Of a DNA stretch of 64,000 bases, positions 24,310-27,692 are shown one piece after another; the first letter of the stretch is position 1, and every line of letters starts with the position of its first letter. The translations under genes and the position numbers were made by a program. Origin of the DNA: Dehalogenimonas sp. THU2 (lineage in GTDB: Bacteria > Chloroflexota > Dehalococcoidia > Dehalococcoidales > Dehalococcoidaceae); assembly GCF_039749495.1 (NCBI RefSeq), contig NZ_JBDLLU010000013.1:1-64000 (forward strand), written 5' to 3'. The notes under the pieces were generated by a model. The model worked only from the letters and a program-made list of their open reading frames with translations. It was not told the origin of the DNA and made no database searches.

Positions 24310-24318
24310 TGGCAGATG
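24310..24318. repeat. Left target-site duplication of the mobile element
   Basis: TGGCAGATG, repeated directly at 26507-26515 on the other side of the element. Confidence 0.85.
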
Positions 24319-24373
24319 GGTACTGTTCGGTTGTGGTGGAGACTTTATTTTGGGCGGTGGCTAAAAGACTTAG

Positions 24374-24658
24374 TTACGAAAATATCATACCGCAATCTTT
24401 ACACTGATAACGCTTTCCATTGAATATTTTTTCGATGTTCTTACTTTTGCATTGCGGGCATTTTTCTAACGCTTCGTATTTTGCCCGTTGAATCCTTTCC
24501 CAATCCGATGGCGAGCCTTGTATCATTTCCCAATCAGAACAACTTATAGAAGTCGTATCGCAACCATAAACACAGTTAGTATTGTATCTCAAGCAACTCA
24601 AGCATACATTAACCTTTGCTTTTTCGGGCTTCTTTTTACCAAACCATAAAAATCCCAT
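24374..24658 (-). CDS. Zinc-ribbon protein of the mobile element
   Basis: The 94-aa product has two cysteine clusters. The N-terminal NVCLSCLRYNTNCVYGCD (about 17-33) looks irregular. The C-terminal CPQCKSKNIEKIFNGKRYQCKDCG (about 67-90) is a regular two-knuckle zinc ribbon. Between them lies an acidic, Trp-containing linker. It is transcribed away from the transposase toward the left end. Such ribbons bind nucleic acid or serve as protein scaffolds; its role in transposition is unknown. Confidence 0.7.
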   Translation of the reverse strand: MGFLWFGKKKPEKAKVNVCLSCLRYNTNCVYGCDTTSISCSDWEMIQGSPSDWERIQRAKYEALEKCPQCKSKNIEKIFNGKRYQCKDCGMIFS

Positions 24659-24751
24659 GCGTGAATTATACCCGCTAAAATAATTATTGACAACGTAGCC
24701 ACCTTCGTTTTAGTATATAGACTTAACAAGGGTAATAAAGGACGGTCAATT

Positions 24752-24889
24752 ATGGCTATACCTAGAAAGAAACCCATAATCAAACGTTGCAAACGATGCG
24801 GACACGTTTGGATGGCAAGAGTTACACAACCCGTTGTTTGCCCCGCTTGCTCTAGCCCTTATTGGAATAAGCCAAGGCAAAAGAAGTAA
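24752..24889 (+). CDS. Small basic zinc-ribbon protein (45 aa), transposase leader gene
   Basis: The product MAIPRKKPIIKRCKRCGHVW...VVCPACSSPYW...RQKK has two CxxC knuckles and is strongly basic, as expected for a DNA- or RNA-binding ribbon. AAAGGA precedes the ATG at 24752. Its stop overlaps an ATG (TAATG, 24887-24891) that opens the upstream extension of the transposase frame, a typical translational coupling arrangement. Confidence 0.7.
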   Translation: MAIPRKKPIIKRCKRCGHVWMARVTQPVVCPACSSPYWNKPRQKK

Positions 24890-24915
24890 TGACGGACAAA
24901 GTAATCTATCAGGTG

Positions 24916-24918
24916 TAA
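24916..24918 (+). promoter_or_regulatory. In-frame UAA in the upstream transposase frame (possible recoding site)
   Basis: The frame ATG 24889 (MTDKVIYQV), TAA, GYGHRRKVSKYV continues without another stop into the transposase. The context is GTG-TAA-GGC. Readthrough by the element-borne tRNA is a hypothesis. Confidence 0.45.
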
Positions 24919-24939
24919 GGCTACGGCCACCGCCGGAAA

Positions 24940-25950
24940 GTGAGCAAGTACGTGTTAACCGATTTCGGGTGTAAGTACTGCGAGTCAACGAACGTCGTTA
25001 AATATGGGACGGTCAACGACGTTCAATATTGGTGGTGTAAAAAGTGCGAGCGGAAGTTTGCGGATAACAATGCCTTGCCCAATATGCGAAAACCGCAAAC
25101 CGAAATAGCATCGGCTTTAAGTGCTTTTTATTCCGGCATGAGCATCGACGAAGCGAGAATCCACCTAAGACAAGAATACGGGGATACACCTAGTGATTCT
25201 ACGGTCTATGAGTGGATTCAACGCTTTAGTGACGAAGCCAGTACCAAACTACGGGGATTAAAACCTAAAGTCGGGGATGTTTGGGTAGCCGATGAAACGG
25301 TTCTGGATTTAGACGGGCATAAGATATGGTTCTGGGACTTGATAGACGCCAAAACTAGGTTCCTACTCGCATCACACCTATCATACAGGCGGTCAACGGG
25401 TGATGCTCAATCACTGGTGATGAAAGCTATTAAGCGAGCCGGTAAATCGCCAAAGGTGATTCTAACCGATAAATTAGCCGCCTATTTAGACGGGATACCC
25501 AAAGCGGCGGGGCATTACGGGACGGGCGATATTGAACACTTACAAACTCATGGTTTCGGAAGCGAAACTAACACGAATCTTATCGAGCGTTTCCATTCCA
25601 CTTTGAAGGGACGAACGAAAGTCTTTAAGGGTTTAAAGTCGGTTGAATCAGCTATGACCATTCTTGACGGCTGGCTGGTTCATTACAACTTCTTTAAACC
25701 GCATGAGTCTTTAGAATGGCAAACGCCCGCCGAATATGCGGGGATCGAAAGCCCTTATTCAAACTGGCGGGATGTTGTAGCCGATAGCCGTTTGGATTCC
25801 CCGAATGTAATAACTGTTAGTTCAAAGCGATATGAAGCGGCAACAGTCGGGAAACCTTCACGCTTTGCCCAAAAGCGGCGGGTTAGACAATCTAAACCAC
25901 GAAAGGGGGTGACGCCTATGGCTGTAATTAGTAGCCCTAAAAAGCGTTAA
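24940..25950 (+). CDS. IS6-like DDE transposase with N-terminal zinc ribbon
   Basis: The 336-aa product is read from GTG 24940. An N-terminal zinc ribbon (CKYCESTNVV... WWCKKCERKF, about 11-41) and a helix-turn-helix-like region precede the catalytic core: D in VADETVLDLDG (about 118), D in VILTDKLAAY (about 166) and E in NLIERFHSTLKGR (about 206), the IS6/IS240 pattern. GTG 24940 has no Shine-Dalgarno. The same frame opens at ATG 24889, coupled to the preceding gene, but is broken by a single TAA at 24916-24918 (codon 10). If the element's UUA-anticodon tRNA reads that codon, the product gains 17 residues. Confidence 0.9.
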   Translation: MSKYVLTDFGCKYCESTNVVKYGTVNDVQYWWCKKCERKFADNNALPNMRKPQTEIASALSAFYSGMSIDEARIHLRQEYGDTPSDSTVYEWIQRFSDEASTKLRGLKPKVGDVWVADETVLDLDGHKIWFWDLIDAKTRFLLASHLSYRRSTGDAQSLVMKAIKRAGKSPKVILTDKLAAYLDGIPKAAGHYGTGDIEHLQTHGFGSETNTNLIERFHSTLKGRTKVFKGLKSVESAMTILDGWLVHYNFFKPHESLEWQTPAEYAGIESPYSNWRDVVADSRLDSPNVITVSSKRYEAATVGKPSRFAQKRRVRQSKPRKGVTPMAVISSPKKR

Positions 25951-25976
25951 CGGCTAAGTACTAGTTAGCCGTTAAC
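25946..25976 (+). terminator. Hairpin at the transposase stop codon
   Basis: A perfect 12-bp stem (GTTAACGGCTAA) with a 7-nt loop overlaps the stop codon and lies 17 bp before the tRNA. There is no clear U tract, so it may be a processing or weak termination site. Confidence 0.5.
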
Positions 25977-25992
25977 AAAGGTTTCCGCATCG

Positions 25993-26064
25993 GGGGGCTT
26001 CGTCTAATGGTCAGGACGACGGTCTTTAAAACCGATAGAGCCAGTTCAATTCTGGTAGCCCCCA
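25993..26064 (+). tRNA. Suppressor tRNA, anticodon UUA (reads UAA)
   Basis: The cloverleaf is complete: a 7-bp acceptor stem without mismatch (GGGGGCT with AGCCCCC), U8, a D arm GTC...GAC with GG in the loop, an anticodon stem ACGGT/ACCGA with one A-A mismatch at the first pair, and anticodon loop CTTTAAA. The T arm GCCAG/CTGGT has loop TTCAATT. Loop positions 34-36 are TTA, which decodes UAA and possibly UAG by wobble. The D arm (GTCTAATGGTCAGGAC) is tRNA-Glu-like and the anticodon arm is Gln-like, so one base change at position 36 could derive it from either. CCA is not encoded, unlike the five other tRNAs here. The amino acid is unknown. Confidence 0.85.
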
Positions 26065-26144
26065 CTTGTCTTTAATAGTACACCTAAACACGTTCAAAGT
26101 CAATAGTTTTACGAATAAAATACGATTGAAAGGTAGGTCTTAAT

Positions 26145-26345
26145 ATGGGTTCATTTTTCGGGCGTTTACTGCTTTTTATTCTGGGTGGGGCTTTGCTATT
26201 GGGTGGTATTTTTCTGATATTCTCCGCTATCGTTTCTATGCCCTTTGTCGCCGATTATACCGATTCATTTTGGTTAGTCGGACTACTAGGTGTAGTCGCC
26301 ATGTTAGCGGGGTCGTTTATCAGCCGCTTTGCCATTCACGGCTAA
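26145..26345 (+). CDS. Small two-helix membrane protein of the mobile element
   Basis: The 66-aa product has helices at about 6-30 and 41-60 separated by a short loop (ADYTDSF). AAAGGTAGG lies before the ATG. Its sequence is not recognised. A hairpin with a T-rich tail (26378-26414) lies 33 bp past the stop and could terminate the tRNA/membrane-protein transcript. Confidence 0.6.
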   Translation: MGSFFGRLLLFILGGALLLGGIFLIFSAIVSMPFVADYTDSFWLVGLLGVVAMLAGSFISRFAIHG

Positions 26346-26492
26346 GACAATAACCAAACCGCCTTGTATTATCATACCTAGCCCTACTAAAAATAGGGCT
26401 AGGTATTTTGTCGGCTCAAAGAACGTTAAGACAAAACCTACCCCGACATATACCAGAGACATTCTAAATAGGTGCTTTTTTAAATCAACCAT
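26304..26492 (-). CDS. Possible small membrane protein at the right end of the element
   Basis: The 62-aa frame has two hydrophobic stretches (about 11-27 and 32-53) and a charged C-terminus. It overlaps the end of the plus-strand gene at 26145-26345 and contains a terminator-like hairpin. No ribosome-binding site is visible. Coding is possible but unproven. Confidence 0.4.
   Translation of the reverse strand: MVDLKKHLFRMSLVYVGVGFVLTFFEPTKYLALFLVGLGMIIQGGLVIVLAVNGKAADKRPR
26378..26414 (+). terminator. Hairpin near the right end of the mobile element
   Basis: An 11-bp stem ACCTAGCCCTA with a 7-nt loop, followed by ATTTTG on the plus strand. Confidence 0.6.
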
Positions 26493-26506
26493 AACCGAAC
26501 AGTACC

Positions 26507-26515
26507 TGGCAGATG
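26507..26515. repeat. Right target-site duplication of the mobile element
   Basis: TGGCAGATG, identical to 24310-24318. Confidence 0.85.
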
Positions 26516-26590: not shown

Positions 26591-26857
26591 ATGAACAAAG
26601 AAAAAACAACGGCTGATTCCTGCTGCGACACCGGCGAGTGCTGCCGTGTCGAAGCTGTGGTAAGCGTGGATGCCCGTGGGCAGTTGGTGCTGCCCAAGGA
26701 AGTGCGCGAAAGCATGGGTATAGCCGCGGGGGAAAAACTGGCGCTGGTGACCCTCAACCGCGGCGGGAAACCGTGCTGCCTGGTGATGATGAAAGCTGAA
26801 AAACTGGCCAAAGGCGCCAGTGAATTCCTCGGTCCGATTCTGAATGAAATTCCATAA
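26591..26857 (+). CDS. Cys-rich AbrB-family protein (HgcAB-associated type)
   Basis: The 88-aa product is read from ATG 26591 ([12 protein letters not shown]). A Cys-rich N-terminus (CCDTGECC, about 11-18) precedes a SpoVT/AbrB swapped-hairpin DNA-binding domain ([22 protein letters not shown]). A further CC pair sits at [10 protein letters not shown]. Similar proteins accompany arsM or hgcAB in anaerobes. The Cys pairs could bind As(III) or Hg(II), making it a candidate metalloid-responsive regulator. It is co-transcribed with arsM, 10 bp apart. Binding and regulation are inference. Confidence 0.8.
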
Positions 26858-26867
26858 GGAGACTGCG

Positions 26868-27692
26868 ATGAAAGACAACGATATCAAGAGTTATGTCAAG
26901 GAACGCTACGGCGGCATCGCCCGTTCGGGCGGGGGTTGCGGCTGCGGCTCCGGGTGCTGCGGTCCGGCGCCGGACACCATCGCCAAAGTCATCGGTTATT
27001 CCGAGGACGAACTGGCCGCGGTGCCGGAAGGCGCCAACCTCGGCCTGGGCTGCGGCAACCCTACCGCCATCGCCGCGCTGAAACCCGGTGAGACAGTTCT
27101 CGACCTGGGTTCCGGCGCAGGGTTCGACGCGTTTTTGGCGGCGCGGCAGGTCGGACCCGCCGGAAAAGTCATCGGGGTGGACATGACGCCGGACATGCTG
27201 TCCAAGGCCAGGGCGAACGCGGTCAAAGGCAGTATAACTAACGTCGAGTTCCGCCAGGGTGAGATAGAAGACCTGCCGGTCGAATCAGGCACTATCGACA
27301 CCATCATTTCCAACTGCGTCATTAACCTGTCGCCGGACAAACCGAAGGTATTCGCCGAGGCCTTCCGGGTGCTCAAGCCAGGCGGCCGCATCGCCGTTTC
27401 TGACATCGTGCTGACCGAACCCCTGCCCGACTATATCCGGGATTCTGTGGCGGCCTATACTGCCTGTGTGGCGGGGGCGATCCTGAAGGAAGAATATCTC
27501 GATGCTATAAAACAAGCGGGGTTCGAGGACATCGAGATCGCCGGGGAGAATGTCTTCGACCTGGATTTTCTGGATATGGCGCCGGAGTTGCTGAAAGAAG
27601 CGGCAGCGCTGGGACTGACCTTAGAGAAGATTGCGCACATCTCTGAGACGATCGTCAGTGTGAAGGTGTCGGCGTCGAAGCCGGCTGGCTAA
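26868..27692 (+). CDS. arsM: Arsenite methyltransferase
   Basis: The 274-aa product is read from ATG 26868 behind AAGGAG. It is a SAM-dependent class I methyltransferase: motif [12 protein letters not shown] (about 80), GVDMTPDML, and [11 protein letters not shown], where ArsM places a conserved arsenic-binding Cys. It has a Cys-rich N-terminal segment ([12 protein letters not shown], about 22-33) and a later Cys in AYTACVAG. It probably methylates As(III). It ends 4 bp inside tilS, which is convergent. Confidence 0.92.

Follow-up and report, generated by a model that had tools for sequence, protein, structure and literature searches.

Why should a bacterial transposon carry a tRNA that reads the stop codon UAA? 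The question is raised by an IS6-like transposon of 2.19 kb (24319-26506) in a 64,000-nucleotide stretch of the genome of Dehalogenimonas sp. THU2, the whole of which we refer to as the window. The comparison of this element with a diverged relative makes us fairly confident that the answer lies in its own transposase gene, which contains one in-frame TAA, and that the full-length transposase would be made only when the co-encoded tRNA reads this codon.

The tRNA gene and its transposon

The window element is bounded by terminal inverted repeats of 22 nt that are 91% complementary, flanked by a perfect 9-bp target-site duplication (Table 1), which bears out an earlier note on this DNA in placing the tRNA between the inverted repeats of a transposon. 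Its transposase contains a DDE_Tnp_IS240 domain (PF13610, 68.2 bits against a cut-off of 27), and the best plasmid and phage matches to it are IS26 transposases. The beginning of the inverted repeat, GGTWCTGTT, resembles the ends of IS26/IS257. With the curated IS6 family model NF033587 the transposase scores 124.4 bits, just below the cut-off of 125 (E 4.8e-36), whereas a tRNA-less relative, L014, scores 142.1, above 125. An 8-bp target duplication is a feature of the IS6 family. Because the duplication is 9 bp rather than 8 bp both here and in the related element described below (TGGCAGATG and AGAGAAAAA, respectively), we call the element IS6-like only; it further differs from the family in its N-terminal zinc ribbon, extra genes, tRNA and in-frame TAA.

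Table 1. Features of the window element and its target-site duplications
Feature	Position	Strand	Basis or remark
Target-site duplication, left copy, 9 bp, TGGCAGATG	24310..24318	.	sequence
Left terminal inverted repeat, GGTACTGTTCGGTTGTGGTGGA	24319..24340	+	equivalent in G049 element: GGTTCTGTTCGGTATTCGTGGA
Small zinc-ribbon ORF, 94 aa	24374..24658	-	ORF and domain search
Promoter-like TTGACA-18-TAGTAT, 5' of the zinc-ribbon/transposase/tRNA array	24687..24716	+	consensus match only
Zinc-ribbon protein, 45 aa	24752..24889	+	69% identical to G049 counterpart
Full transposase frame from ATG, one internal TAA	24889..25950	+	IS6-like DDE domain, N-terminal zinc ribbon
In-frame TAA at codon 10, conserved; putative target for the tRNA of the element	24916..24918	+	codon 9 in G049
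Transposase ORF without suppression, GTG start (fallback)	24940..25950	+	GTG is GTC in G049
Hairpin between transposase and tRNA that overlaps the transposase's terminal TAA	25946..25976	+	same fold and place in G049
tRNA, anticodon UUA (ochre suppressor), A73, CCA not encoded	25993..26065	+	ARAGORN, Rfam
Small membrane-protein ORF, 66 aa, cargo	26145..26345	+	sequence
Right terminal inverted repeat	26485..26506	-	paired with 24319-24340
Target-site duplication, right copy, 9 bp	26507..26515	.	sequence

The complete fold with anticodon UUA that the earlier note had read from the letters was called by ARAGORN as tRNA-Stop(tta) and accepted by the Rfam tRNA covariance model at 61.4 bits (E 7.4e-11), against a gathering score of 29. 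This lies within the span of tRNA scores in its two carrier genomes, G000 and G049 (47.7-77.2 bits), by comparison with which the tRNA is of ordinary quality. Among 61 related genomes one further copy was found, in G049, which belongs to another family of the same order. The earlier note allowed that related copies might carry a normal anticodon; this one, 82% identical to the window copy, carries UUA too. It scores 62.2 bits, likewise above the cut-off, and two T-stem pairs are changed on both sides between the two copies, compensatory differences which indicate that the fold has been maintained. Each copy also has a single anticodon-stem mismatch, at differing positions. The host tRNAs of G000 and G049 nearest to the UUA tRNAs are only about 60-70% identical to them, which rules out a one-step mutant of any host tRNA compared.

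That CCA is encoded by the other five tRNAs in the window, and not by this one, was correctly seen in the earlier note. However, the host tRNA-Val(UAC) (G000:C10:645-718, L063) is also without encoded CCA, and since this holds for at least one host tRNA, the absence is no strict sign of foreign origin. The D arm (GTCT...GGAC) and the 4-nt variable loop are common to the UUA tRNA, host tRNA-Glu and tRNA-Gln(CUG), and A73 with G1:C72 matches Glu better than Gln; the amino acid carried is thus probably glutamate as a first guess, with glutamine as the second. No credible ribozyme was found at the tRNA end with Rfam at permissive thresholds.

Both elements have the gene order zinc ribbon, transposase, hairpin, tRNA, with the window tRNA about 43 nt 3' of the transposase gene. 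The zinc-ribbon gene and the transposase frame overlap as TAATG, the last base of the zinc-ribbon TAA being the A of the transposase ATG. By inspection, the promoter-like site of the window element has a counterpart in the G049 element, TTGACA-17-TACTAT, at the corresponding place. A promoter-like site was also sought on the + strand immediately before the tRNA and none was found, so that co-transcription of the tRNA with the zinc ribbon and transposase is likely from the layout. The hairpins at the terminal TAA of the transposase (L003:4054-4088 in G049) differ in sequence and agree in position and fold; no comparable hairpin was evident 3' of the relatives that we examined by eye. It may serve in RNA processing, tRNA release or the blocking of ribosomes.

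A conserved in-frame TAA in the transposase gene

The G049 element (L090:8021-13999) has 22-nt inverted repeats (GGTTCTGTTCGGTA...), its own 9-bp target duplication, and a transposase about 60% identical to that of the window. Another IS6-like insertion sequence (L003:945-3075) splits this transposase gene, the two parts of which form a single reading frame once joined; hence only the window copy is intact. The inner element, a different one from its carrier, has inverted repeats GGTTCTCATGCA.. and, by inspection, an 8-bp duplication CTTGAAGG; it is an IS nested in an IS.

From its ATG the window frame reads MTDKVIYQV*GYGHRRKVSKYVLTDFGCKYC, and the G049 frame reads MEKIVFKV*ANYRKHRKVYKYTLTEFGCKHC, the TAA being at the homologous place between similar flanking residues. 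The length differences around it are whole codons, so the frame has been kept across the TAA. When the first 60 codons of the two frames were compared, the 58 codons compared around the TAA showed 16, 13 and 39 differences at the first, second and third codon positions, respectively (permutation p<5e-5). Moreover, fourfold third bases were the same at only 25/60, that is, synonymous sites are strongly diverged. The concentration of differences at third positions, together with this divergence, indicates that this frame is maintained for its protein product on both sides of the TAA. Thus both elements have an in-frame stop that matches the tRNA of its carrier and lies within a gene under protein-coding constraint. 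A frameshift at the TAA was ruled out, since in both elements the frame conserved 3' of it is frame 0. Each transposase frame has exactly one internal TAA; the reassignment of stops in many genes that marks recoded phages was not seen.

Translation could in principle begin downstream of the TAA. The window frame keeps GTG at codons 18 and 22, where G049 has GTC and ACG. The G049 frame has no ATG, GTG or TTG from the TAA up to the zinc-ribbon cysteines, its first being codon 63, beyond the cysteines, and its full-length transposase would therefore need either readthrough or a very unusual start. We surveyed 50 non-redundant relatives for start codons from the nearest upstream in-frame stop to the CxxC motif, and a start was absent only in the G049 element and in a contig-edge fragment (L038). 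The tRNA-less relatives that share the N-terminal stretch have a sense codon at the place of the TAA: ACG (Thr) in L014 and a Leu codon in L135.

Within all loci fetched, suppressor-type tRNAs were confined to the window and G049 elements, and no suppressor tRNA lay near the in-frame stops reported for other relatives. One such stop, at G049:C20:19749 (open ORF L003:1561-2559), proved to be the terminal stop at the alignment end. Within the order, 156 genomes were searched and yielded the two carriers and one weak 20-base match, and a pattern search of 392 genomes of the class centred on G049 returned G049 only; the window organism and G049 are the only carriers in the class samples of about 390 genomes. 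Searched with the tRNA pattern, a species collection of 84,980 genomes gave one match, in Pseudomonas, that was not a tRNA, and viral contigs, phages and plasmids gave none. Transposase relatives in a 400-genome sample of the phylum and in 84 genomes of the order of G167 were likewise without a UUA-type tRNA. These counts come from collections that may omit records close to the window, and the zinc-ribbon protein was too widespread to serve as a search probe.

A possible lock-and-key control of transposition

That two diverged elements share both the tRNA and the in-frame UAA suggests that their jumping may be under lock-and-key control. With somewhat more reserve than for readthrough itself, we think that these are self-suppressing transposons, in which the nonsense codon and the co-transcribed UAA-reading tRNA would form a switch and transposition would depend on both. 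Judging from the layout, the putative promoter 5' of the zinc-ribbon gene would give a single transcript of zinc ribbon, transposase and tRNA, and the TAATG overlap would allow the transposase frame to be started by coupling from the zinc-ribbon stop. Most ribosomes would terminate at codon 9/10. The tRNA would be excised from the transposase transcript, receive CCA from the host and be charged, probably with Glu or Gln given its Glx-type body, after which a fraction of ribosomes could read the UAA and produce the complete transposase, zinc ribbon included. How much transposase is made would then depend on the product of two element-encoded RNAs, resulting in a delay or threshold and in a low level that is coupled to the maturation and charging of the tRNA and to its competition with release factors. 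Such a switch would tie transposition to tRNA maturation and the release-factor state in the host.

Several points count against this proposal. There are only two independent copies, one of them interrupted; no more than 8-9 codons precede the TAA; each tRNA has an anticodon-stem mismatch; and the GTG codons of the window frame permit a start without readthrough. This last point is the basis of an alternative in which the TAA simply ends a short leader peptide, the transposase starts at GTG 24940 and the tRNA is unrelated cargo, as would agree with the many relatives whose transposase begins immediately ahead of the CxxC motif. However, G049, with GTC and ACG at these positions, offers none of the usual start codons ahead of its cysteines; the codons that precede the TAA are conserved in frame and are part of the N-terminus of tRNA-less relatives; and it would be left unexplained why an internal UAA and a tRNA that reads it coincide twice. 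We therefore regard the leader peptide as unlikely. That the tRNA is a relic without any translational role, either decayed or structural and captured, for example, from a host chromosome, is the least probable of the explanations that we have weighed: the mismatches and the absence of encoded CCA would fit decay, but the tRNA scores within the host range, its fold and anticodon persist, with compensatory changes, in a copy of 82% identity, and the best host tRNA compared is about 70% identical, none being close.

It would be tempting to see the tRNA instead as the code-perturbing passenger of the earlier note, an accessory or selfish trait whose main targets would be genes of the host, or neighbouring ones, that terminate with UAA. 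With 24/54 long ORFs of the window ending in it, UAA is a frequent stop there, so effects of this kind could occur; by the same count a UAA reader should tax host genes, which is a further point against self-suppression. Yet the passenger reading leaves the conserved in-frame UAA of the element's own transposase unexplained, and the element is rare, the sampled genomes of order and class yielding only the window's own and that of G049. While the observation of a UAA-reading tRNA on a transposon was correct, and the tRNA is conserved, its action on host genes is probably not the main point, because the transposase itself offers a conserved UAA that the tRNA could read, a codon that the note had overlooked. 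As the principal role of the tRNA we consider it very improbable, though host genes that terminate with UAA may be affected incidentally.

Self-suppression of the kind proposed here would have partial parallels. In recoded phages (crAss-like, code 15), too, a tRNA of a mobile genome reads stops in that genome's own genes (PMC10879173, PMC9523058). Phage suppressor tRNAs mostly read UAG (PMC10879173, PMC9523058); among ribozyme-linked ones 99.7% do so, in phages whose genes are recoded with UAG as glutamine, and most ribozyme-linked phage tRNAs are also without encoded CCA (PMC10879173). Here, by contrast, the codon is UAA, a single one in a single gene, and the tRNA is transposon-borne with no credible ribozyme. 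Another natural suppressor tRNA in a bacterial genome is the amber suppressor tRNA-Trp of Aeromonas salmonicida A449, on which genes are said to depend (PMC2556355); it differs in being chromosomal, in reading TAG, in differing by two bases from the host tRNA-Trp and in not being reported as a transposon component. Genes of mobile elements are enriched in in-frame stops, and it has been suggested that these may for the most part be pseudogenes (PMC7918605).

Limitation of the transposase by translational recoding would itself be shared with other insertion sequences. In programmed frameshifting of the IS1/IS3 type, a recoding event limits transposase output at translation. Such frameshifting has been reviewed (PMC5009743), and it differs from the present case in that here the frame does not change and the recoding agent would be an element-encoded tRNA. 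In the open-access literature searched we found neither a transposon with a suppressor tRNA nor one whose tRNA corresponds to a stop conserved in the element's transposase gene, in agreement with the earlier note, which held a UAA-reading tRNA on a transposon to be undescribed. If true, the proposal would add to transposase control a stop codon with a private tRNA in place of a frameshift, antisense RNA or repressor. It would also provide a minimal two-part example of a genetic-code change at its start, with one codon, one gene and one tRNA, as a pair that moves between hosts.

Cargo and surroundings

The cargo of the G049 element comprises a DUF7508 protein and an N6/N4 DNA methyltransferase fused to a C-terminal Mrr-like endonuclease domain (L090:8236-9558), the latter possibly a one-protein restriction-modification system. 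In the host chromosome, the window transposon is adjoined by a methyltransferase gene (26844-27692) that, by eye, resembles ArsM-type arsenite methyltransferases.
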